DNA of 64,000 nucleotides from Astropecten irregularis (lineage: Eukaryota; Echinodermata; Asteroidea; Paxillosida; Astropectinidae), in contig OZ020258.1 of assembly GCA_963971285.1 (NCBI GenBank), positions 12,172,614 to 12,236,613 of the forward strand, read 5' to 3'. The notes below the pieces were generated by a model. It worked only from the letters and a program-made list of their open reading frames with translations. It searched no databases and was not told the origin of the DNA. The first letter of the stretch is position 1. Every line of letters begins with the position of its first letter. Positions 3,690 through 44,000 of this stretch are shown here, piece after piece. A program made the position numbers and the translations under genes.

Positions 3690-3955
3690 AGATTCAATAA
3701 GCAGATATGCTTAATGATTGAATAATAAGCAGATATGCTTAACGATTGGATAATAAGCAGATATATGCTAAACAATTGAATAATAAGCAGATATGCTTAA
3801 CAATTGAATTATAAGCAGATATGCTTAACGATTGAATAATAAGCAGATATGCTTAACGATTGAATAATAAGCAGATATGCTTAACTGTTGGACAATAAGC
3901 AGATATGCTGAACGATTGAATAATAAGCAGATATGCTTAACGATTGAATTTTCAG
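3690..3955 (+). repeat. Tandem array of about 25 bp (AATAAGCAGATATGCTTAACG)
   Basis: About ten imperfect copies of a unit reading ATAAGCAGATATGCTTAA plus CGATTGA. The unit contains the palindrome-like AAGCAGATATGCTT. It lies next to a family D element whose termini contain GCTTAAGC, so it may have grown from one. Confidence 0.85.
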
Positions 3956-4059
3956 TCCACAGCGCTGCTTAACAGTAAACACAGAACGAGTATGCTTAAA
4001 AAGACTGTTGCTTAAAATCTATGAAGCAACAATGAAGATCACTTTGTTCTTGCAAGCAG

Positions 4060-4304
4060 GGACCAATTTCATACAGCTGCTTAAGCACCAAAATTTGCTT
4101 AAGGACCAAAACCCCATGGTAAATAAAATCAGAATGCCAACCAAACTCCTTGTGCATGTTAATGCTCAGTAAGCAATGACCTATAAATACAAGTTAAAAT
4201 CAGTAAACATCACATGAAAATTTGGTTGGTAATCCTGTATAATCAAGGAAGACTTTTCATGCTTAAGCAAATTTTGTGCTTAAGCAGCTCTATGAACGGG
4301 CCCC
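4060..4304. mobile_element. Family D hairpin MITE, copy 1
   Basis: Left end CCAATTTCATACAGCTGC then TTAAGC; right end GCTTAAGCAGCTCTATGAA. Copies at 38189-38421 and 60342-60590 show the fuller terminus GGCCAATTTCATGAAGC-like. No coding. Confidence 0.65.
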
Positions 4305-4868
4305 TGTATGAAGAAATACAAAAATGACATTTAAGCAGGTTCTTTTTTAGATATAGTAGGCATGCTTTTCCTTTATCAGCTGTTTTCCTCTTATTTTAGT
4401 CCACTTCACTCTAAATGCCATTGAAAAGTGAGAAACTCTGTACAAAAGTTTGGTAAAGATGGGAAGTTCTTTGTTTTTGTTAAGTCCAATTTGCATTTCT
4501 TTTATTCTTTATACTGTAGAGCAGCGCTGTAGAATTTGGCCCAGTCATTAAAAATTGGGTTTGAAAAATTGAGGAAAAGATCACAATTTGCCCGCATCTT
4601 TTAGCAGATGCATCAATTACTGAAAATCATAAGGCAACACAATATGTTGACCATATGCTGTGCTGTTTTGCTCTAACGATTATCGCCAAAATTAAACAAG
4701 TATGTTAAATGTACAAAGTTCAAACGAGTTATAAACTGTGTCATGATGGATGTGACATTTCAATTTGACAGATATTCGCATTTTCAATCTTTCATAATGT
4801 TGTGAGGGAATGTGACGGTTTTGCCATGAATACTGGCTGTTAGCAACAGAGTTTGGGATATCGGCCTT
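4305..4868. other. No gene or repeat recognised
   Basis: AT-rich intronic (gene A) or intergenic sequence, depending on where gene A ends; nothing else identified. Confidence 0.4.
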
Positions 4869-5332
4869 AAGCCCCTTTCACACCGGGCCTTACGTATAGT
4901 TACGTAGAATTGCGTATCGACTACGCTGCCCTACGATGTTCCTACGCTAATCTAACGTAACAATATGCCAAATACGCAGAAGGATTACGCGACACGTATG
5001 CAAAAAATTCAACATGTTAAATTTTTTCTCGTACTCTTGGTGTAGAGCACTGGACACCGGATGTACACAGTTTTTACGCAAATCTACGCAACACTACGCT
5101 ACTGTATGCCATGTCTACGCAATACTACACGCCTGTATGCCATGTCTACGCAATACTACGCGCCTGTACTCCAATTATATTATGATGGTGGGTACCCTGG
5201 TGCCTATGCACAGGATACACAACCATACGCCATCGTTTTACGCACATCTACGCAGGCTCACCTTGAGTACGCTACCTTATTTCGGCATACACGATGTGCA
5301 ACTCTACGTAGGCCCGGTGTGAAAGGGGCTTT
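4869..5332. mobile_element. TIR element, ends AAGCCCCTTTCACACCGGGCC
   Basis: Inverted ends of about 28 bp (GCCCCTTTCACACCGGGCC and its complement), flanked by TTA on both sides. The inside has repeated TCTACGCAATACTACGC-like blocks. The frames across it are made of these repeats and are not genes. Confidence 0.75.
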
Positions 5333-5541
5333 AGCCTCAGAAAACGAGCTGAAAGTCGGCCAAGGAGAGGCTGTCTTTTGCTGATCTCACATCCCACTTA
5401 AAATATCCTTTAATTGTCTGAGTAGGTCTCAACCGACAGTGAAAGATGGCTCCTGAATAAGCCATTAGCGAGTTAAATCTGAATAGTATCTGGTACACAG
5501 GCTTCTTCCATTGCATACAAACACCCCTGTTTGAATTTCCC

Positions 5542-5738
5542 AGACTAAAGACTCTGTTGTTATATCACATGATTTGGGGCAAGCTTTTGCATAGTGATAC
5601 CCATCTCTGGAATGGACTGGTTCCTTTGTGCCATTCTTATCCATTATGAATAGTGCATTGGTGCAAGACGTCTGTTTTGTAACTAAAGCAAAAGCTTGCC
5701 TAGAATCATGTGATATAGCAACAGTGTCTTTAAAGTCT
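5542..5738. mobile_element. Hairpin MITE of about 200 bp
   Basis: Left arm AGACT..TGTTGTTATATCACATGA..GCAAGCTTTTGC and right arm its complement (GCAAAAGCTTGC..TCATGTGATATAGCAACA..AGTCT). About 50 of 55 arm positions match by eye; the loop is about 90 bp. Confidence 0.65.
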
Positions 5739-6242
5739 GAAGAATTCAGGTTTTGATGTTCACGTAAAGTGAAAGAATTCAGTGTACCAGATATTGTTCC
5801 ATTTGAACTCGCAAAAGGCGTATTGTCATTTACAACTGGAAAGATTCTTTTGGTTCATTCCAGTGCTAGTAAATATAATATACCTAAACTGTTTCAAGAT
5901 TTGGATGACTTTTGTAGTGCCAAGTCTTTAAATCGTCAAAATGAGGCCAGCTACAACCAAGGCTACGGCTTGTTGCCATGAGCAACAGTCCATCATGCCT
6001 GCATCTATCTGCACTGTATGGCACATAGCGATGCCCATAGCAACAGACATAGCCATAACAATGTGGATCTGGCTTTAGTGCAAAAAAAAGAAAGATATAT
6101 AGAAGAATTGTAGTCCCACCTAGAACGGGAATAAAGAAGTCTGCAGAATTAAACCATACATTTATTAATTAAACCTATATTAACCATTTCTTTGTAGTAT
6201 GAATCTTTTTCTTTTTTGTAGTATGATTTTTTTTGTGGTTAC
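5739..6242. other. No exon seen; start of gene A intron 4
   Basis: Searched for a gene A exon 5 counterpart (about 144 bp, phase 1 at both ends); none found here or further left. Includes a long run of T and AAAAAGA near 6200-6235. Confidence 0.45.
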
Positions 6243-21400: not shown

Positions 21401-24400
21401 CAATGAAGCGTCAGGCGATTTAATCAAATTTTAAATTCCATTCGAACAGTATTCAAATTCGTAACGGCTTTTGGCAGCGTGTTAAATTGAATGCCCATTT
21501 TGCATGGCTAAACTGAACGACTGTTGAATTTAATTGAATGCAATGCTTTATAAATACGGATGCATCAAAGTGAAATCCAGTGACTGTTTCAACTGAGGAG
21601 GCAAAATCAAGTGAACACGAATGCGTGAAAATGAAATTGCTCACTCATTTGCCGAAAACTACCAGGAAAACCTATATTTCCACACATATTTCCAGCAAAG
21701 CTAGATGACAAGCCAACAATTTCTTTTAGAGCCCAATGCCTTAATAATCCTCCATCAAAAAAACGAAAGAATCGTGGAAAAACTAGATATGTAAATTTTC
21801 AAGTCATAAAATAATTTTTAAAACCTGTAATTTTTAATGTTCAAAGGCAATATGCATACACAATATGTCTAGAATAAATGTCTGTGCGTGCGGTACATAT
21901 TTAACAGTTCATCTTATGAGCCCAATGATCCTGCATACTAAACAAACAATTTTGTTTTATTTGGGATATTCCATTTTAAATGTGAATTTTCTTTTCCTTT
22001 TTTTATGATGGAGCTGGGAACTCAAACAAAAATGGTCGCCGGTTCGAGTCCCGCTTCAGTCAATATTTCTTTGTTCACTTTTCGATGACTTTGAATTTCA
22101 GTCAATTTCCCTTTTGGGTATTTGATGATTATATTATTTAAAAAGCTGTATCCTCTTTGAGTGATCCCCCATGTACCGTTCCCAGGCATTGCTGCGTGTA
22201 TCATTGAAATGATCCAAGGGGTATGGCGGTTTGTGCTTGGTTTCATGGCTTCTGACTGCCAAACGAACATTTTTAATTGACTATTTAGGACACCACCAAT
22301 GTAGGGCTGGATTGCTCCGTTGGTAGAGCACCTGTACGTTGTTCAGGGGGTCGCCGGTTCGAATCCCGCTCCAGTCAGTTTTTCTTTGTTCACTTTTCAA
22401 TGAATTTGAATTTCCCTTGTGGTTATTTGATGATTATATTATTGAAAAAGCCGTATCCTCTTTGAGTGATCCCCCATGTACCTTTCTCAGGTTGCAGCAT
22501 TGCTGCGTGTATCATTGAAACGATCCCTGGGGTATGGCGGTGTGTGCATGGTTTCATGGCTTCTGACTGCCAAATAAATAAAGATGATTGACTATTGGGG
22601 TCACCACCAACGTAGGGCTGGATGGTAGAGCGCTAGCGCCTGTACAGTGTTCATGATGTTACCGGTTTGAATCCCGCTCCAGTCAATATGTCGACCTTTG
22701 TTCACTTTTCAATGACTTTTAATTCAGTCAGTTTCCCTTGTAGTTATTTGATGATTATAAAAGCCCATATACTTATGTTTAAAACTACCTCTCTCAGTAT
22801 TGCACAAAAAAAAACACTTTCGAAAATGCAACTTTATATAGGCCTACCAGTAGGCTGACGGTAGCACAGTGACATAAATATTTCACTGGTGCTACACAAA
22901 ACCTTACTTTTTCTCAAGGAGGCAACCAGTGTAGTTTTCATTGTCTTTTTCTCCATTTATAGTAGGTGAGAGTTTTTAATGAAGCGTTGATCAACAAAAA
23001 TGAAGCTAAAATGAGCAAAATGTAACATGACTGTAATGAATGTTGAAATGTGGGCTGTGTCCCTAACCAGTACAATGACAATGTGCAATATCATCCCTTA
23101 CAAAAAGAAATATCCAATGGTCTTAGTAAATTGCCAAACCATAATATTAACCATGATTTTTACCACGGTAACCACAGTAAAACTGTGGTAATTCATACAA
23201 TTATGGCTAACCACTATAAACTATGCTTACCATGGTTCTTTTTTAACCATGGTTACCACCGTACAATTTTCAAACCATGGTTACCACTGTACAATTTTTA
23301 AACCATGGTTACCATGGTAGGTTTTTAAACCATGGTTACTGTGATACTTTTGAAACCATGGTTACCACCATACAATTTTAAACTATGGTTACTGTGGAAG
23401 GTTTTTAATCCATGGTTACTGTGATAGTTTTGAAACCATGGTTACCACTGTACAATTTTAAACCATGGTTACCATGGTAGGTTTTTAAACCATGGTTACT
23501 GTGATAGTTTTGAAACCATGGTTACCTCTGTACAAATTGTAAACCATGGTTACCATGGTAGGTTTTTAAACCATGGTTATTGTGATACTTTTGAAACCAT
23601 GGTAACAACCGTGCAATTTTAAATCATGTTTACCATGGTAGGTTTTTCAAACCATGGTTACTTTGATACTTTTTCAAACCATGGTTACCATGATACTTTA
23701 AAAACCATGGTCACCGTGGTACTTTTTTAAATCATGGTTGCCACGGTAATTTTTTTAAACATAGTTACCATGGTACTTTTTAAAAACCATGGATACCATA
23801 GTTATTTTTTTTATAAGGGATGTTTATTGGGAGGATGAACTTTAGGCATTTAATTTTGGTTTTTGTAGAGGCCTTGCCACATTTCCATTGTAAGGTGCAC
23901 CTCCATTGCCAACTGTTTTTGATGGAGGGCAGGGCCTAGGCTTCTCAAGGTGAGAGCCTTGGCGTGGATGTGAACCACCATCAGAATGAAGGGAAGATTT
24001 CAAATTTGAGCAAAATGAGAAATGTGACCTACCATGTTGAGAAAGGTGAATGTGGACGCCAAACAGAGTGTCAGGCTGACTCCGTTTAGGATCCACATGT
24101 CGGGCGATTTCAGGATGTTGCAGTAGTCGGCCACGGTCTCTTTGGGCGTCTTCTTGGTGTGCACGGGAGGTTTGAATGTCGTCTTCTGGTCCGAAGAGTA
24201 GGAGGCGGAGGAGGCCTTCCTGTCCTGGGGTAGGTTAACAGCAGCAGCGATGGGCGGGCTCTGTATGACGGACATGCGACGCTTCTCTGCCGGGGACGGG
24301 CGGAAGGCGAAGGCGGTGAAGGCAGTGAGAAGGACCAAGCCGGCAAACACCCTGAGGGTGTTGTGTAGGCCTATGGACTCCAGACAGCTCTCCATGACAG

Positions 24401-27400
24401 GAGCTACTATCATCAGTCCTAGTTTTTTGGAAAAATCAAGAGATGGTCCTCCTTTGTCATATTGAAATGCAACACTGTCTTCGGAAGAAAATTAAATACA
24501 GTTGGGAAACGCACTGTAATTGGTTTTGAAAACAATCCGTGGTTTTTAATAATCAATCAATCAATCAGTCAATAGACAAAGGCATTTGCATGTGGTCTCC
24601 TCCTCAAATTATACACCATGTACACTGATGGAATGCAGGTTTATCAATTTTTAGATATTGGATGAAGAAGTTCAAAAGTAGAACTTGAATTAGTTGATAG
24701 TGACAGTTTTTCTGCTGCTGTTGTCCTGTGCAGTCAGTGAATAAGTGGATTCCACAAATCAGGTTAGTGGATAATGTCCAACTACTGTGGCATTTCAACA
24801 AAGGCATATTCCTTTTTTTAAAGGTAGTATCATACTTTGGTTTTCATCAAAGAAATACAGATTCATGGGCAAAAATATCAAGACAGATTCAGTAACAGTC
24901 ATCTGTGAAAATTTCAGTGCCATACGATGCCCATTTTTTGAGAAAACGGTGAAAAACACAGCCACATTATTTCTTCAGTCCTTTCTCTTTTATTTTTGGT
25001 CGTTGTTTTACTAAGTTCTGGATAAATACACCATTTCAGGCGGAAACATTTGAACGGTATGTTTCTACCAGCACCATCTTCATACCCTGTAAGTTATATG
25101 TAAATCTGTGAACATTTCTGTTTTGAGTGTGGAGAGGCAAGTGACAATAGGCTGAGTCCTACTTTACAGTGATTCCTACAATCCTTTACGGATGGAGAAA
25201 ACTCTGCTTTGATGGCATTTCAAGGCAATCCAGAAATACACACTAAAGAAAAGACTAAGTCTGCATGAGTTGTCATCGCAGCAACCGCATCTTCAGATAC
25301 GAGATGCATTCCCGGGCGGGGCCAGGATAATTTGGGATGGAGAGGAGGATCTAGGTATACCTATACTAGAGGCGATGGCCATGAATCCTGATCCCCTGAT
25401 GAACTCCTTATGGAAGTAGCTCATCAGGTAGTCGTAGGAGCTGAAGCAAGCCAGCGACATCCCGCCTCCAAAGAGAACACTGTAGGTCAGGAAGAACCAC
25501 CAGACGTCCGAGACGAAGGAGGACAGCAGCAGGGAGGAGGCGCCCAAGAGCGCCCCCAGGAAGACGGTGGCCCGATAGCCAATCTTGACAGAGATGGCTA
25601 CCGTCAACGGAGAGAGTAGACAGCGTGTACCCAGTGAAAGAGAGCCCACCCATCCTACAAGACAAAAAACAACACCATTGCATAATCATTGGCTTTTTCC
25701 GATTGTGATCGGAAAAGGTATTTTTTTTTATCGGATATTGTATGCCGAACAAATACGTCATCGTGATGTCATCAGGTGTCAAATTACAAGCGATTTGAAT
25801 TTAATAATCAAAATCTTTAAAAATCAACAAAAAATCTACGGTTTGAGATATTAAGTTGATTCTTTCAACAAAAGTGAATGTTAGGCAAGGTCTTTCTTTG
25901 TGACACATTGCTTGACCTCTGTGACCTCTACTTCCGGTCAAACAGGAAGTAGCTCCTCATTTAAAAGTGGTAAGAAGCTAGGATCATGATTCTTTAATCA
26001 AATATCAATGTTAGACAAGGCCTTTCTTTGTGGCATAAACATGACCAAGTCACCAAGTAAGATTAAAGGTGCACACTTTAACTTCATAAGTATAAAACAT
26101 ATTATAAGATATTAATCAAATATCTTTGTGTGTATTAGGTTATGATGATTATTTATTAGTATATTAAATATCATAAAATGGAAAAACCTTTTGTTCTGTT
26201 TCAGCAGTCACATCCTCTAGTTTTTCTTTGTTCACTTTTCAATGACTTATAATTCAGGTCAGTTTCCCTTGTGGTTATTTGATGATTATATTGATTAAAA
26301 AGCTGTATCCTCTTTGAGTGATCCCCCATGTACTGTTTTTCAGGTTGCAGCATTGCTGCGTGTATCGATGAAATGGTCCTTGGGATATAGCAGTATGTAC
26401 GTGGTTTCATGGATTCTGACTGCCAAACGATAAAAGATAATTAATTATTTGGGACACCACCAACGTAGGGCTGGATGGCTCAGTTGATAGAGCGCCTGTA
26501 CAGTATTCAGGAGGTCGCTTGTTCGAATCCAACTCCAGTCAACTTTACTTTGTTCACCTTTCAATTGCATAATCTAGTTATAAATGCATCTTCAAGAATT
26601 TAAGTAGGGTACCTTTGGCCAAAAAAGGGTATTTAACCGATAGGCCCATCTTATGCACTAGATGCATGCATTATACATATACTGTTCGTTTTTCCATTGT
26701 GTTATCTGTTCGCATTCTAAAAAGTAAATGGTCATGTAATTACATCATTGCAAAATGAGCTATACATAATGAAATAAATTTCCCCAACTCGAAAAACATA
26801 ACCCCAAATAAAAAAAAAATTGAAAAAAAAAGTTACATGTATAGCCACATGAAAATATCAATAAAATGTATGCAATTTATTATTTATGCAATATTCTACC
26901 TTGGATTATATGTTCAAAATGTGAGTTATTTTCAGCACAAACTCAGCATACTACCAACAACATAACATTAAAAAAAAACATTCTTATAAAACCTGCGTTA
27001 AAGGTAATATCATACTTTGGTTGTTGTCAATAAAATGCAGATTCATGGGCAAAAACATCAAGAAAGATACAGCAATAGTCATCTGTGAAATTTCCAGTAC
27101 CATATGGTGCCCACTGTTTGAGAGAACAATGAAAAACGCTCACAGCATTTTCAAAGATGTTTACATGCAGGAGAGATCAAAACTATTTTTTGGTTTTTGA
27201 TTTTACACTTTTCTAGATAAATACAGCATTTTAGGTACTAGGACAATTTTAACAGTATGTTTCTGCCACCACCATCTTCATACCCTGTAAGTTATAGGTA
27301 AATATGTGAAGATTTCTGTTTGGTATACAATGTACTTCCATGATATGACCATGACAGTATACCTTTAAGCGCTACTGAAGCAGTGAAGCGTTGCGCTATT

Positions 27401-34622: not shown

Positions 34623-35493
34623 AAATTGGGTCCTGCTCTATTACAGTGATATTATAGGAGATCAGTGGGTGGTGCACCCACTGTCATATGAAATGTCGCC
34701 CTCTTGTGGCGTGCATTTCTTAGTGACCCTCAAATAAAAGGCGGGAAACTGCAGAGCACTTTTACGACAATGTGGTTGGGCAGAAGTTTTGATCAGATAA
34801 TTCTGAACTCTGTCTTGAAATCAAGCCTACTTCTCACTTTTTCAAATAGGCCTGCTAGAAATAAACATTATGGTATTGGTTCACACTTTACTGTCGCCAA
34901 ATTCATGTATTCTGGTTGTATACATTTTAATGTCAGCAAAGCTAGTGTAGGTTTTTAGTTGGCAGGGTTTTGGGCATTTTTAGGGAAATTATGAGAAGAG
35001 TCAGCTACACAGAAGTGACACTCAACACGGGAGCAATGGAAAGTTAACAGCACACACACATTAAACTGCAGAGTCGTTGCACCGTTGGGTAAGTTTATGA
35101 ATTATTTTCAGTGAAAACACACAGGATTCAACATTTCAGAAACTATGAAAATATAGCCTTAGAGAAAGATACTGCTAGGATCAAAACATTAAACACCAAG
35201 CATTTTATAAATTTCAGGTAATGAATTTTGGTTTATTACTTGCATAGGAAAATGTCATGGGAAAAGGGTTGCTTAGCTGTAGACAGTTAATTTTGGAATG
35301 GCAAAAGAAAACACTATTAGAACTCTTAATTAAGTATGAGGAGCGCCAGGCTATTGTGCACCATTAATTTATCATTATGAGAATGAGTATAGAGAAAGTT
35401 GAATGCTTGATACTTGCAGTAGAGTTTGGTAGAACTTGTGATAGCTGAATCCTACACATGCACGTGATGATTGATGTAAAAGGTACAGTACAG
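34623..35493. other. No gene recognised
   Basis: Intergenic sequence between gene A start and gene B end; nothing identified. Confidence 0.4.
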
Positions 35494-38000: not shown

Positions 38001-41000
38001 CTAGTTCGGGAGAGAGAAGCAGAGGAAGGAATTTAGGCTGGTGAAGCCTGGAGGAAGACAAGGTGCGTATGCAACCATTTTGAGAAAGATTCTGCTCAAA
38101 CTCACTGAAGTCAGCATTTAGCTCCTTCAAGAGCAACCCTGCATGGATGTCATTACCTGGCTTGAAATTTGGTTTGTTATAGTAGTCCGGCCAGTTTCAC
38201 AGAGCTGCTTAATCACTAAAGTTGGTTCAGCATGAAAAGTCTTCCTTGATCAAACAGGATTGCCAAATATATCATGTTTACTGCTTTTGATTTGTATTCT
38301 GCCATTGTTTGCTGGGCATAACATTCACAAGGAGTTTTGGCTGGCATGCTAATTTTATTTACCAAGGTTTTTTGGTGCTTAGGAAAATTTTGGTGCTTAA
38401 GCAGCTCTATGAAATTGGCCCAGGAATGAAGACCATGACACTACATTGTCAAGGCCACATTCAAAAACCCCTAAAGAGTATACAGGAACATTTATATGAT
38501 CAGGGAAGCATATGAAGTGCAGGTCAGGTATCGATTTCACCAAACTCATCGTAACTTACTATCAATCGTAGGAGTTATGATGCATTGCAGCTCCTACATA
38601 AGATACAACGGGTTATCCTCTATAACTCGAGTTACGATCGATCGTAGGGCTTCGCGAAATCGACCCCAGGTCTGGTTTATACTAAGGAACCAAAGCCCTT
38701 GCATCCTGTGCTGCATTTGCTTGCTTTTTTGGAGCAAGTGGCTAAGATTCAGCAGTGTGCAACATGTTTTGTTGGACTTAACGAACAGGGCTTTGAAAAA
38801 AAATCACTTACCGAGCAAAGATCCCAAAACGAGGCCGACACCAGCCATCATGATGGCCACCGCGGAGGTATCAAGACCCTTGGCTGAGCCGTATATCTCC
38901 ACGCAGATGGAGTAGGGTAGCGTGTCGAACGTAGCCATGACAAACAGTCCAGCCACTGTGAAAAAAAAACAAGTCCACAAAGTAGTCGGTAAATCAAGAG
39001 CCAACACAAATGAGACAACCAATTAGTGAAATTAGGGGCCTTTCTCAAAGCTCGGCTCAGGCTCTGGCTTCGTCTCTGTTTTCATATGCTGAAAATATAG
39101 GTTGTGGTTTTCTATTGAAGCTGAAGCTCTGTTGTCCTTTTCAAACCAGAGAATCTACTTCCTAACTGCAGCCAAAAGCCTCTATTTTGATACCTGTAAT
39201 TTTGAAATGGATTCACGAAATGGAGGCAGAGCCGGAGACAGAGACGGAGCCGAGCTTCGAGAAAGGCCCCTAGAATAAGAAAGATTTGGAGCTTTGCATG
39301 GTTCGGTTTTTGGTAACACCATGTAAAATTTGGTTTGTACTTGTCGCACTTCTTATTTCGTTGCACTTCTCGTTAGGTCTCAACGTTTCGACTAGCCTGC
39401 TCTAGTCATCATCAGGAGACGATTGCAATGAGGGATGAATGGTTCTTAAATGGGATTGTTGAGGATCCTGTTCTGTGGATGAGCTCTTTGATTGGTGCTC
39501 ACTGGAGTGTGAGAGGATCCGGTTGTGTGGAATTATGATTAGTTCATCTGAAAATAATGGCGTGTTGAGATGTTTTGGCAGGAAGGAGGTAGTCAGTTTG
39601 TGTATCCATGATTGTATTTTCAAGTACAAACAAATTCCCTCCACACCAAATACCGTAACCTCTCTGATTTTTGGAAATTTTTCGCCCCACTAGATTTATG
39701 ATGCCAGTTTGTCAAAACTTACCGACAGCAATGACCAACAGGAGTCCCAGCGACTTGGCAAAGATGAGCACAACCATTGCCACTCCGCCCAGGGTGCTGG
39801 CGATGGCGAAGATGTAGATCTTGGGGAACGGAAGGATGTCGGCTACGGCCGAGATGATGATCTTGCCCAAAATCTCCGACACGGCAAGCACCATCATGAA
39901 GATGGCACTGTCGGACTTGTCAAAGCCATTGGTGGTCATGAAGCTCACCTGGAAAACAAGTCAAGATCGCCGGAGGCAAGTAAGTACCAGTTCGTAGGTT
40001 TGTTTTATCTTCAAAGGTAGTAAGTAAGCAATGCATACCTAGAAAATTTTGCAGTGATCCCACTTGAAACTAATAACTTTCATTGAGGAGAGGTTTATGA
40101 GAATAGAGTCAGCTGTAGCTTTGATATTCCATTTAGTCAGTGTGCTCCTGAAGGTAGTCTGACAATAACTTAGGGGAGTCAGGTTGGCGTAGCGGTTCTT
40201 TCCTCGCCTTTCACCTCTGGCGGACCGTGTTCAAGTCCGGCTCGATCCACAAGTGGATTGGGTTTTCAGTCCCTGCCTGATTCCGTGGGTTTTACCCTGA
40301 ATATAACTCTGGGGTTTTCCTCCCACCTCTAAACCTGTATCTTCTTCTCATCATCTTTACATAAGAAAGGTTTCATCAGGCTTTCGAGCTTCAGTGCTTA
40401 GGGCACCTTTGAGGAATCCTTGGTGTCATTACCAGAAATAAATAATAATAATAATTACTGAACATGACCAGATCGACAAGCTCAACCCATGGTTCCATAC
40501 CAAACCAAACAATTTGAGAGATTTGGTTTTGTGTGGTGTGGTCCGTCATTGCACATTTTGGGATATCTGGTTGTATATCCACTATGTAAAGGCTTGAATC
40601 CTACTCAAGCCACACAATGTGTGTGGATGTCATCCAAAGGCTGATGGTGATTTCTGAGGGGTGAACTTACCATGCTGATGTAGTAGAATGTCAGCGTCAT
40701 GCAGCAGATCATGATACCGATGGACATCATCCAGAGCTCAGGGTAAGCGATGTTACGAAGGCGCTCGCGTATCCCCGGCTTAGCTGCCTCAACCATGATC
40801 TGCTCGGCCTCTGCCTCTTTCTCTCTGAGCCTCTGCTTCTCCTCCTGGATGATGGACACCTCCTCTTCCTTCTTCTCCTCCTCGCCTTCTACCTCCTCGT
40901 CCTCACCTGAGGGTGCCACCGAGTCGGCCTGGATGAGGTTCTTGGAGGACGGCTGGGAGAAGGTGCTGACGCACGGCACGGAGACAATCAGGAGGATGCC

Positions 41001-44000
41001 GCCGACCACGCGGAGCATGTTGCGCCAGCCCCAGGCGTTGATGAGATGATGTACGATCTGATTCATAACCAGCATACCTGTAATTACGGAGGCAAGCAGA
41101 TGGGGGGAGAGGAGGACACAGAAAAGTGAGTATCGAACAAGTGGAGCTTAACTCAGGCCCCTGGGTTTTAAGGGCACTCACTCGGGGTGGGATGAACAAG
41201 ACAACACCTGCAACACAGCACCTGTCATGCCAAGACCATGGTCATGGCCTTTGACCACGACCATGGTCAGGTTAAGCCCTGAGGAGAGAATGGGTTAGTT
41301 CAAACACTTGTATGGGTTATACAGCCTTGTCATACTCATGATACATACCGGTGGTATACTTCTCTTTTAAACTAACTCATGTGGTTGGTTTCCTGTCGAG
41401 TGGGAAAGTCTCTGATTACAGTTGGGATGGAAAATGGATTGATGAATTGATGGGATGAGCTTCGGAACTTTGATGGCTCGCTCGGAACTGTTCGTTTGCA
41501 GGCAAGACGAGCCTGCATGCATCATCATCGATCACTGACGTGTGGTGGGATGACGCTCTCTTCTTGAAGTAGACAACGAAGGAACCAGCCGGAGTACCGC
41601 CACCTTGAAGGCGCATCTCTTGAGATGTGGGTGACGTCGGAAGCCTTTAAGACGGAAGCCGCCAAGAAGAAGGTCTTGTCTGAAGAGAGGCCCGTCGAGG
41701 TCAAACACTTCCGGACATCTCTGTGGCTCGCTTTCAACCTGAAGAAGACAGACCCTCCGCTTCATTTGAGAATTGCATCGCCACTTTCGTGGGTCCATGC
41801 TGCTTGAAGTTAACCGCATCTAGGTCTTGATACCCATCCACGGGATTCTTCTTTAATAGCATCTTCAGAGATACCTTACCGTGTTGTAGTCTCCTTCGTC
41901 TTCAGGCGATACCTACAGTCTGCATGGAGACACCATTGCCATAAAGAAGCAATGGGGCTCTAAGCAGATGGGCAGAAATTGAACGATATAAAAGAAAGAT
42001 ATTAGAGAGTGTTGGTAATCAAGCCACACGTCTTGCTGGAGTAGATGGCGTGTTCTCTTACGGTTTCACCCAGCAGGAAATCTCTTAGCCGAGCACAACC
42101 AAAAACTTTGAAGCTTCGAAATATAAGACTTGCAAAATCTGGTTGCCAAGGCTAAGAGTTTCGCTGAGTTGAAGAAAACCGCAAAAGTAAAAGAAAAGTA
42201 AAGAAACGTAGCAAAATACAGGTAGAAAATACTAAATAATTTAATATTTATTACTCATGTCTTTAAGAAGTTATGCGGACAAAATAATATCAAAATAGCT
42301 TTAATTTTACAATGATAAAAATTAGCATAACTTTAAAACTGTTTGTTATACACAATTGTTTTAACTTTTAGAAATAGAAATAAGTATTTACATGCAGTTT
42401 TTTTTATATATTTAACTTTAAGGCCACTTATTTCACCTTACTAATTAATGCCTGTGTTACCCTTACGGATTGGGGAATTTTAGGATGATTTATCAATTTT
42501 CTAGACAAATTTCAGAACAATTTTTTTTAGGAGAGCTAAGTTAATCTGATTGACCTTTATCGCATCTGAAATCGCCATACTTTGATCCTGAAATGACAGA
42601 AACGTTTTTAAAATGCAATTGCCATTCTTTCGTTTGATATGTAACATCCCGGATTTAATTATCGAACTTTGTAACTAGCAAATAGTAAAGTAACTGTTTA
42701 GACGTGATGTTTATCCGAACACCAAACAACTTGGTGGATCAAAGTAAAGAAAGGTTGATTGTGAGGTCAGGACTATAATCTTTAATCTACCCATGAGTAA
42801 ATAATGACTTAGCATACAATGCAATGCATTCTCTGGTTAGGGTTTGTTTAAACCGCTTATAAAGTATGACTTATTTTATTAACAAGGATAACAAAAAACG
42901 AACCCGAGATACCGACTGCAAAACTTAAGAGAGTTTTCATCCACAAATACCTGTTCTGTCTATGCGTGAAGTGAAACCAACTTTCGAGAAGAGATAGTTT
43001 TTACCTATCAAGGGAAATACAAAATTGAGCCTTGCACGAAACCACTGCTCTTGGCAGCGCGCCAATTTTTTGATCGGCTGCTCTTCAGGACCTGCAAAAA
43101 TGTATCGCGGATTTTGATTGGTTACTTTGTTACCATGGGGAAAGTTTTTCGTCGCCATGGCACTCGAATTCAAATAAATAATCACAAAAACCTTTCGGTA
43201 TCCTAATTATAAACGCAAACAACTTTTTCTTCAACCGTTTACAAATTTATCTCATGCTTTATACCAAAAATAGTTACGAATTAAGTTCACGTTTTATAAT
43301 TCTTGTTTAGCTACGTAGCTACTTGTAGCTTGAGTAGCTAAGTCTTATAACCTTGCATTAATCTTTTAAAAGTTAAAGTTATTTCCCATCTACCGGTATT
43401 TTTCCTTGAATGAAGAATTAATGGAAATGCTCCATGAAATAATGAAATGGCCCGATGACTGAGAGGAAAATGTTGAACTGCACTTTGAATTGAAATAAGA
43501 AGAATCATTCACGGACAAATTTAAGTTTATAGCTTAAAGAATTGATTGATTGAAGTTAAAGGTTTGATCAAGATCAAGAAGAAAGTTTTGTGGTATATCT
43601 CACCTGCTGTTGTTCCAGTTAGCGCTAGACCGGTAGCTCGGGAACAGTTCTTAGCGGGGAAGTACTTGAGGATGAGGTTGATGGAAGAGATGAGGGCTAG
43701 GTTGACGCCAAGTCCGTAGACCACACCGAAGGTCAGGTACAGGACTTCTAGAATAGGCATCAGAGAGGTGACCACCACGCTGACGAAGCACATGAAGATA
43801 CCGGCGATGGCCACCGGCCGGTTGTCGAACCGTCTGAGGAGGGCTGTAGACACGAAGGTCCCCATGGCGTGTAGACCGATGGCGATGGATCCGATCCATG
43901 CTGTAATTAATATAGACAAATACATGTAATTAATAATTTAACCGAGGATGGGACCTTAGGGAGACTTTCCCATAGGGTCGTCCACAAACTGTACTTACCT

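Follow-up and report, generated by a model that had tools for sequence, protein, structure and literature searches.

Small hammerhead variants of Penelope-like elements (PLEs), described by Cervera & de la Pena (2014) and by Lunse, Weinberg & Breaker (2017), are summarized in reviews (PMC7761336, PMC6466107), with PMC6155905 as a further source on this minimal class. As these sources present them, the variants follow the type I order, have no helix III or a minimal one with a palindromic stump, and occur as thousands of dispersed copies linked to PLEs. According to PMC11167929, the ribozyme of a PLE from Anolis carolinensis (Poseidon, PAc) cleaves in vitro in the presence of the PLE protein, which is needed for the reaction; the same report describes that in vitro this protein cuts and extends both strands, that reverse transcription starts at two internal sites, and that insertion is unaffected by ribozyme mutants. 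PLE insertions in Adineta vaga are described as head-to-head inverted pseudo-LTRs (pLTRs) with a 31-bp tail on one of them, an 8-10-bp TSD and a TATA sequence (PMC3846280; PMC8969392 is likewise cited for this anatomy), and PMC3846280 favours self-priming on antisense RNA as their origin. Metazoan retrozymes, as presented in PMC7229834, also carry type I hammerheads and form tandem arrays.

We analyzed a 64,000-nt stretch of the Astropecten irregularis genome, hereafter the window, which holds a hammerhead motif at positions 39377-39420 of the minus strand, the sense strand of an intron of an MFS-type transporter gene. The motif belongs to the already known class of PLE-type minimal hammerheads. 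It shares with the small PLE variants the type I order, the reduced helix III with its palindromic stump, the dispersal of its family and the PLE link, but differs from them, as known from the reviews, by a one-nucleotide insert after A9 and by the existence of some U3-A8 families. Judging from sequence comparison, we consider it probable, at roughly 0.88, that the motif is a minimal type I PLE hammerhead lacking helix III, which a short non-autonomous PLE repeat of the solo pLTR type, with more than 1000 genome matches, would carry at its 5′ end, and that the window copy is an ordinary old intron insertion.

Read 5′ to 3′, the motif has the order GTCTC-CTGATGA-t-GACTAG-AGCAGG-CTAGTC-GAAA-CGTT-GAGAC. 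The 5′ strand of helix I (GTCTC, 39416-39420) is followed by the core CTGATGA (C3 to A9, 39409-39415), whose N7 varies among families as it does in hammerheads, and by an extra T between A9 and helix II (39408), a position that is nearly always filled, with a variable letter. Helix II and its loop (39390-39407) consist of GACTAG (39407-39402) and CTAGTC (39395-39390) around AGCAGG (39401-39396). Next comes GAAACGTT (39382-39389), made up of the GAAA core (39389-39386), the self-complementary ACGT (39386-39383) as a palindromic helix III stump, and T at H17, and the 3′ strand of helix I (GAGAC, 39377-39381) closes the motif. Helix I has 5 bp and helix II 6 bp, and the cut is predicted between 39382 and 39381. 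All parts that the earlier note had described (cores, helix I, helix II and ACGT) are thus found at this place and on this strand, and its reading of them as a minimal type I hammerhead of the Penelope type with a self-complementary helix III stump is supported. A loose core spacing pattern has five matches in the window against 0.72 expected, a mild enrichment, and by eye only one of the five, the motif itself, forms both helices.

The covariance-model check that the earlier note had proposed came back negative: Rfam gave no hammerhead at 39377-39420 even at E ≤ 10, and none across the window. RF00163 (Hammerhead_1) searched over the same genome gave 0 matches with 73 of 56583 candidates scored, and the gathering threshold of RF00163 or RF00008 (Hammerhead_1 and Hammerhead_3) was not reached at any place scored. 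An intact PLE of this genome (locus L069) with the same architecture as the window motif has no Rfam hammerhead either, so that the missing score says little about the PLE-type class. In both, helix III is reduced and self-complementary, as ACGT in the window motif and ACGCGT in L069.

The motif is one copy of a dispersed repeat, far beyond chance. In the 476-Mb genome, a pattern joining helix II and core, CTGATGATGACTAGN{4,8}CTAGTCGAAACGTTGA, has 457 exact matches, and one joining helix I and core, GTCTCCTGATGAN{16,24}GAAACGTTGAGAC, has 1009 with array units counted; the reversed-pattern controls gave 0 in both cases. A 27-base piece from the 3′ part of the repeat has 1596 genome matches, and a 121-base search gave at least 45 with 40 of 1896 candidates scored. 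A second hammerhead family was seen at L046 and L051 (motif at 1501), where by eye a short reading frame (..SSSSV-) stops inside the CTGATGA core.

The earlier note had taken the extra T as a departure from the consensus, which made activity uncertain. The genomic copies contradict this view. We took 40 copies selected through the 27-base 3′ piece and not through the motif, fetched from the first 45 listed of the 1596 after leaving out places already sampled or paired; 27 of the 28 that reach the motif have a base after A9 (20 with G, five with T and two with A), the remaining copy showing a gap, and the exact canonical form without this base has 0 genome matches. Among the copies listed, a small number carry at least two additional bases, or a deletion, at this position. 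Other helix II sequences retain the extra base (a+GGCT/AGCC and c+GGGCAG/CTGCCC, among 83 matches against 0 in the control), as do motifs with A, C or G at N7 (553 matches against 3 in the control). In our own folding of the PAc RNA given in PMC11167929, CUGAGGA-U-GCCUGC..GUGGGC-GAAACGUC, the same extra base appears; folded so, the insert belongs to a ribozyme that reportedly loses cleavage when C3 or G8 is mutated. According to PMC10085705, known alignments show no more than one or two bases inserted between CUGAnGA and the stems. Penelope-type hammerheads of this genome normally carry the extra base, and the window copy belongs to the T type of the repeat, named after the letter at this position.

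Helix II is kept by compensatory change, with the extra base constant, in a set related to the window's family but distinct from it. This set comprises 66 distinct 33-base motifs from 100 listed of the 553, with 8 motifs of other length and 26 repeats left out, and its first helix II pair is fixed by the search pattern. Three of five covariation measures exceed all shuffles: helix II pairs in 89.9% of cells versus 80.9% when shuffled, double-changed cells number 52 versus 20.8 (0 of 500 shuffles; 4-11 when slid), and the covariation score is 0.378 versus 0.212. The double changes fall in four of the six pairs, which is no excess over the 3.4 of the shuffled motifs (216/500), nor is there an excess of further pair types (10 versus 9.2; 169/500). 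Helix I, compared by eye, takes the forms GTCTC/GAGAC, TCTC/GAGA and GCCT/AGGC in three families, and is weak or interrupted in L048, L059 and L072-L076. The last five loci, with helix II GTCA/TGAC in L072-L074 and L076 and GGGC/GCCC in L075, were excluded from the covariation argument because their helix I does not form cleanly.

A link to a reverse transcriptase (RT) is seen in a resident PLE. L069 is a partial tandem of this element with an ORF of 890 aa from ATG; its 890 codons (shifted by one) match RVT_1 with E 1.3e-6 and 28.7 bits, against a curated cut-off of 29.6, and GIY-YIG with E 7.5e-6, above the curated cut-off. A motif precedes the ORF and recurs behind it, GCCT-TTGAGAA-a-GATCC-TGCTA-GGATC-GAAACGCGTC-AGGC, with the layout of the window motif and the core pair C3-G8 replaced by U3-A8, a compensated pair known in natural hammerheads and reported as active in PMC3088659. 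The U3-A8 pattern TTGANAANGN{8,20}CGAAACGYG has 1755 genome matches versus 3 in the control, and on contig C1 it lies 358-503 bp downstream of seven of nine GIY-YIG hits; behind the other two there is none among the matches listed. The RT association is seen for the resident PLE family; no RT was found adjoining the window's own family, and no PLE with the exact window motif plus an open reading frame. Two further GIY-YIG loci, L070 and L071, were rejected as partners, since neither has an exact CTGANGA..GAAA motif followed by CG. The 545-aa ORF of L071 (1598-3232), which matches GIY-YIG and by eye has a RING-like cysteine motif, may be a host gene derived from a PLE endonuclease; L070 has a long ORF (3714-5999, 954 aa) that also matches GIY-YIG, and within the 6 kb fetched there no hammerhead motif with GAAACG occurs. 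In the window itself, a decayed relative of the PLE motif lies about 4 kb from the window motif on the opposite strand: positions 35151-35222 of the plus strand hold a resident-PLE copy, 89% identical to L069 over 37 nt, with its hammerhead broken and core letters changed.

The repeat family inserts like a PLE pLTR, with head-to-head pairs, a tail on one arm, and 8-13-bp duplications in about half of the pairs. For loci L001-L068, matches from BLAST against a single real copy were counted as neighbours when at most 250 bp apart (L033 and L034 being one place and L018 counted twice); 21 neighbour pairs lie head to head, one tail to tail (in L018) and 50 on the same strand, the latter mostly arrays, with some read twice in overlapping loci or being pieces of one copy. 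Exact head-to-head matches within 30 nt number 83 genome-wide, a few of which overlap or share a junction, versus 0 in the control. We fetched 40 pairs from 50 listed of these 83, the ten left out being places already sampled, overlapping matches, repeated junctions and single later ones. The 3′ ends fall at two sites, A and B, of which B lies about 35 nt further and gives the tail. In 25 of the 27 classified pairs one arm ends at A and the other at B, where 13.7 mixed pairs are expected (0/20000 permutations); the other two are A/A, none is B/B, and 13 of the 40 pairs have an unclassifiable arm. Near their outer ends, 13 of the 25 mixed pairs have a word of 8-13 nt in common, which lies within 8 nt of both ends in 11 and more than 8 nt from an end in the other two, against a null in which 99% are at 8 or less; in the remaining 12 mixed pairs no shared word reaches 8. 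In the resident PLE, four pairs have by eye one longer and one shorter arm each, the longer arm of L117 stopping early. The family thus shares with the A. vaga elements of PMC3846280 the head-to-head inverted pLTRs, the tail on one, the TSD and the TATA sequence, while here 27 classified pairs of a short non-autonomous repeat were counted; with PAc, as described in PMC11167929, it shares two RT start sites, PAc being autonomous with a motif that overlaps its start codon and the present repeat non-coding.

These inverted pairs could also be read as a DNA repeat of foldback or MITE-like type whose nested hairpins resemble a hammerhead by accident. Many copies are indeed inverted repeats, some middle junctions recur (at three and two places, among the matches listed) as if an inverted unit had been copied, and the monomer has no Rfam score. 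We regard this as improbable, given that one core recurs with differing helix II sequences and is also found, with a compensated U3-A8 pair, in an RT-encoding PLE, that the arms are of A and B type in nearly all classified pairs, and that the middle junctions mostly differ. A snap-back origin of the pairs is not discriminated by identity within pairs (0.896, versus 0.890 between pairs; p 0.28, with 30 of the 40 pairs long enough), because copies from one source give the same value. The letter at the extra position differs between the arms in 10 of the 40 pairs, six of them T versus G, compared with 20.9 by random pairing, which indicates that the arms share a subfamily more often than by chance; some of the ten may be later mutations. 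One head-to-head pair (L009, 1455-1538) forms a hairpin with a weak Rfam match to a microRNA precursor (mir-74, 30.9 of 57 bits).

Where copies start was assessed in the 40 copies chosen by the 27-base piece, most of them single (28) or with an inverted neighbour (10). In 23 of the 40 the alignment starts at one of the first six positions of GGTCTC-CTGATGA; of the 23, two run on into a 5′-extended form with a TATA-like box, leaving 21 of 40 that break at the 5′ edge of the motif. A break at the predicted cut site, with a start at GAGAC, was found in 2 of 40, a weak excess at most, and one of the two is ambiguous as the inverted arm repeats the same letters. Since copies mostly start at the motif edge and seldom at the cut site, the inserted RNA appears usually to carry an uncut ribozyme at its 5′ end.

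This distribution also bears on a metazoan non-LTR retrozyme, that is, an RNA transcribed from tandem repeats, self-cut and circularised. Tandem arrays do exist, with units of about 54 bp in the window's family (L014) and about 80-87 bp at L038, L056 and L062; units of about 60-65 bp were seen in an array of the resident PLE family (L121). RF00008 fits two neighbouring L014 units (28.0 bits against a cut-off of 48.5; E 0.023 over 17 kb), and in this fit the ACGU sequences of the adjoining units pair with each other. The family has in common with the retrozymes of PMC7229834 the type I hammerhead and some tandem arrays, but its tandem units do not hold a canonical type I hammerhead with helix III, and most of the 40 copies are single or inverted. 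The starts at GAGAC expected from a cut RNA are rare compared with those at the motif edge, and we find this origin more doubtful still than a DNA repeat.

The host gene lies on the minus strand. Of five exon ORFs scanned, three weakly match MFS models in Pfam, all below the curated cut-offs (MFS_1, E 3.6e-7 at 43530-43937 and E 0.0027; MFS_1_like, E 0.023), and two of the five match nothing. Splice-like sites seen by eye put the motif in an intron of about 38956-39722, in the sense strand of a transporter gene as the earlier note had it. By BLAST against L002-L008 and against one reference copy (78.4% identity), the whole repeat copy, with 5′-extended form, motif and 3′ end, spans about 39276-39532 and ends near 39276 at the longer, site B type of 3′ end, the tail. 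It is one-sided, and BLAST found no second copy of the family within the window. A degenerate TATA-like box, noted by eye in the long copies, may lie at 39445-39451, about 31 nt ahead of the GTCTC strand; certain other long copies have TATATAAGG there by eye. Directly next to the hammerhead repeat, at 39033-39275, is a second short repeat whose long terminal inverted repeats were read by eye as GGGGCCTTTCTC...GAGAAAGGCCCC; a similar sequence adjoins a PLE pair in L118. Elsewhere in the window, two alike tRNA-like stretches (22305-22377 and 26469-26541) exceed the Rfam threshold and are perhaps SINE copies.

The earlier suggestion that the motif could cut the transporter pre-mRNA is not supported. 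Differences from the common form outside CpG amount, over the 28 copies, to 7.0% in the core (part of them stemming from truncation at the 5′ edge), 4.5% in the helices, 10.7% in loop II and 6.5% in the adjacent repeat; the core is kept no better than the adjacent repeat, and a host role for the window copy is therefore unsupported. Although the motif is intact and in sense orientation in an intron, a working ribozyme that cuts or regulates this pre-mRNA, like the conserved human intronic hammerheads (RECK-like), is the least credible reading and highly improbable, given a monomer without helix III and with a single family copy in the window, cores that differ as often as their surroundings, and an Anolis PLE ribozyme that, as reported in PMC11167929, shows no cleavage without the PLE protein.

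For the short non-autonomous PLE repeat, we propose the following model. The element RNA would start at helix I, some 30 nt downstream of the TATA-like box, and cleavage would not be needed to make the RNA that is inserted. The PLE protein may extend both ends of a staggered break using two RNAs, copying from site A on one side and from site B on the other, so that two cDNAs would meet head to head; we thus favour two-ended target-primed synthesis with two RNAs. The ribozyme would act, if at all, as a dimer through its palindromic ACGU or together with the PLE protein; alternatively, neighbouring units of tandem arrays might complete a type III-like hammerhead. Computed energies do not favour a double hammerhead over other dimers (-24.7 kcal/mol, versus -24.2 for two monomer hammerheads and -31.6 for the best dimer).

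A bolder and rather unlikely possibility is that PLEs use the minimal hammerhead with palindromic helix III mainly to signal RNA dimer formation and not to cut. A pair of uncut RNAs joined via ACGU would load onto a dimer of the PLE protein, and at a single staggered break one RNA would be copied from RT start A at one end and the other from B at the other end. Such a role would explain the starts at the 5′ edge and the head-to-head pairs, the presence of exactly one tail in 25 of 27 classified pairs, and the joining of T-type and G-type arms in 6 of 40 pairs.

Taken together, these results settle the case of a candidate that had seemed a defective intronic ribozyme, its extra base being usual for Penelope-type hammerheads in this genome. 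They also provide countable genomic evidence on the use of the ribozyme to PLEs: the templates appear to be mostly uncut RNAs that begin at the ribozyme, which agrees with the mutants reported in PMC11167929, and each head-to-head insertion appears to involve two templates, begun at two different sites.
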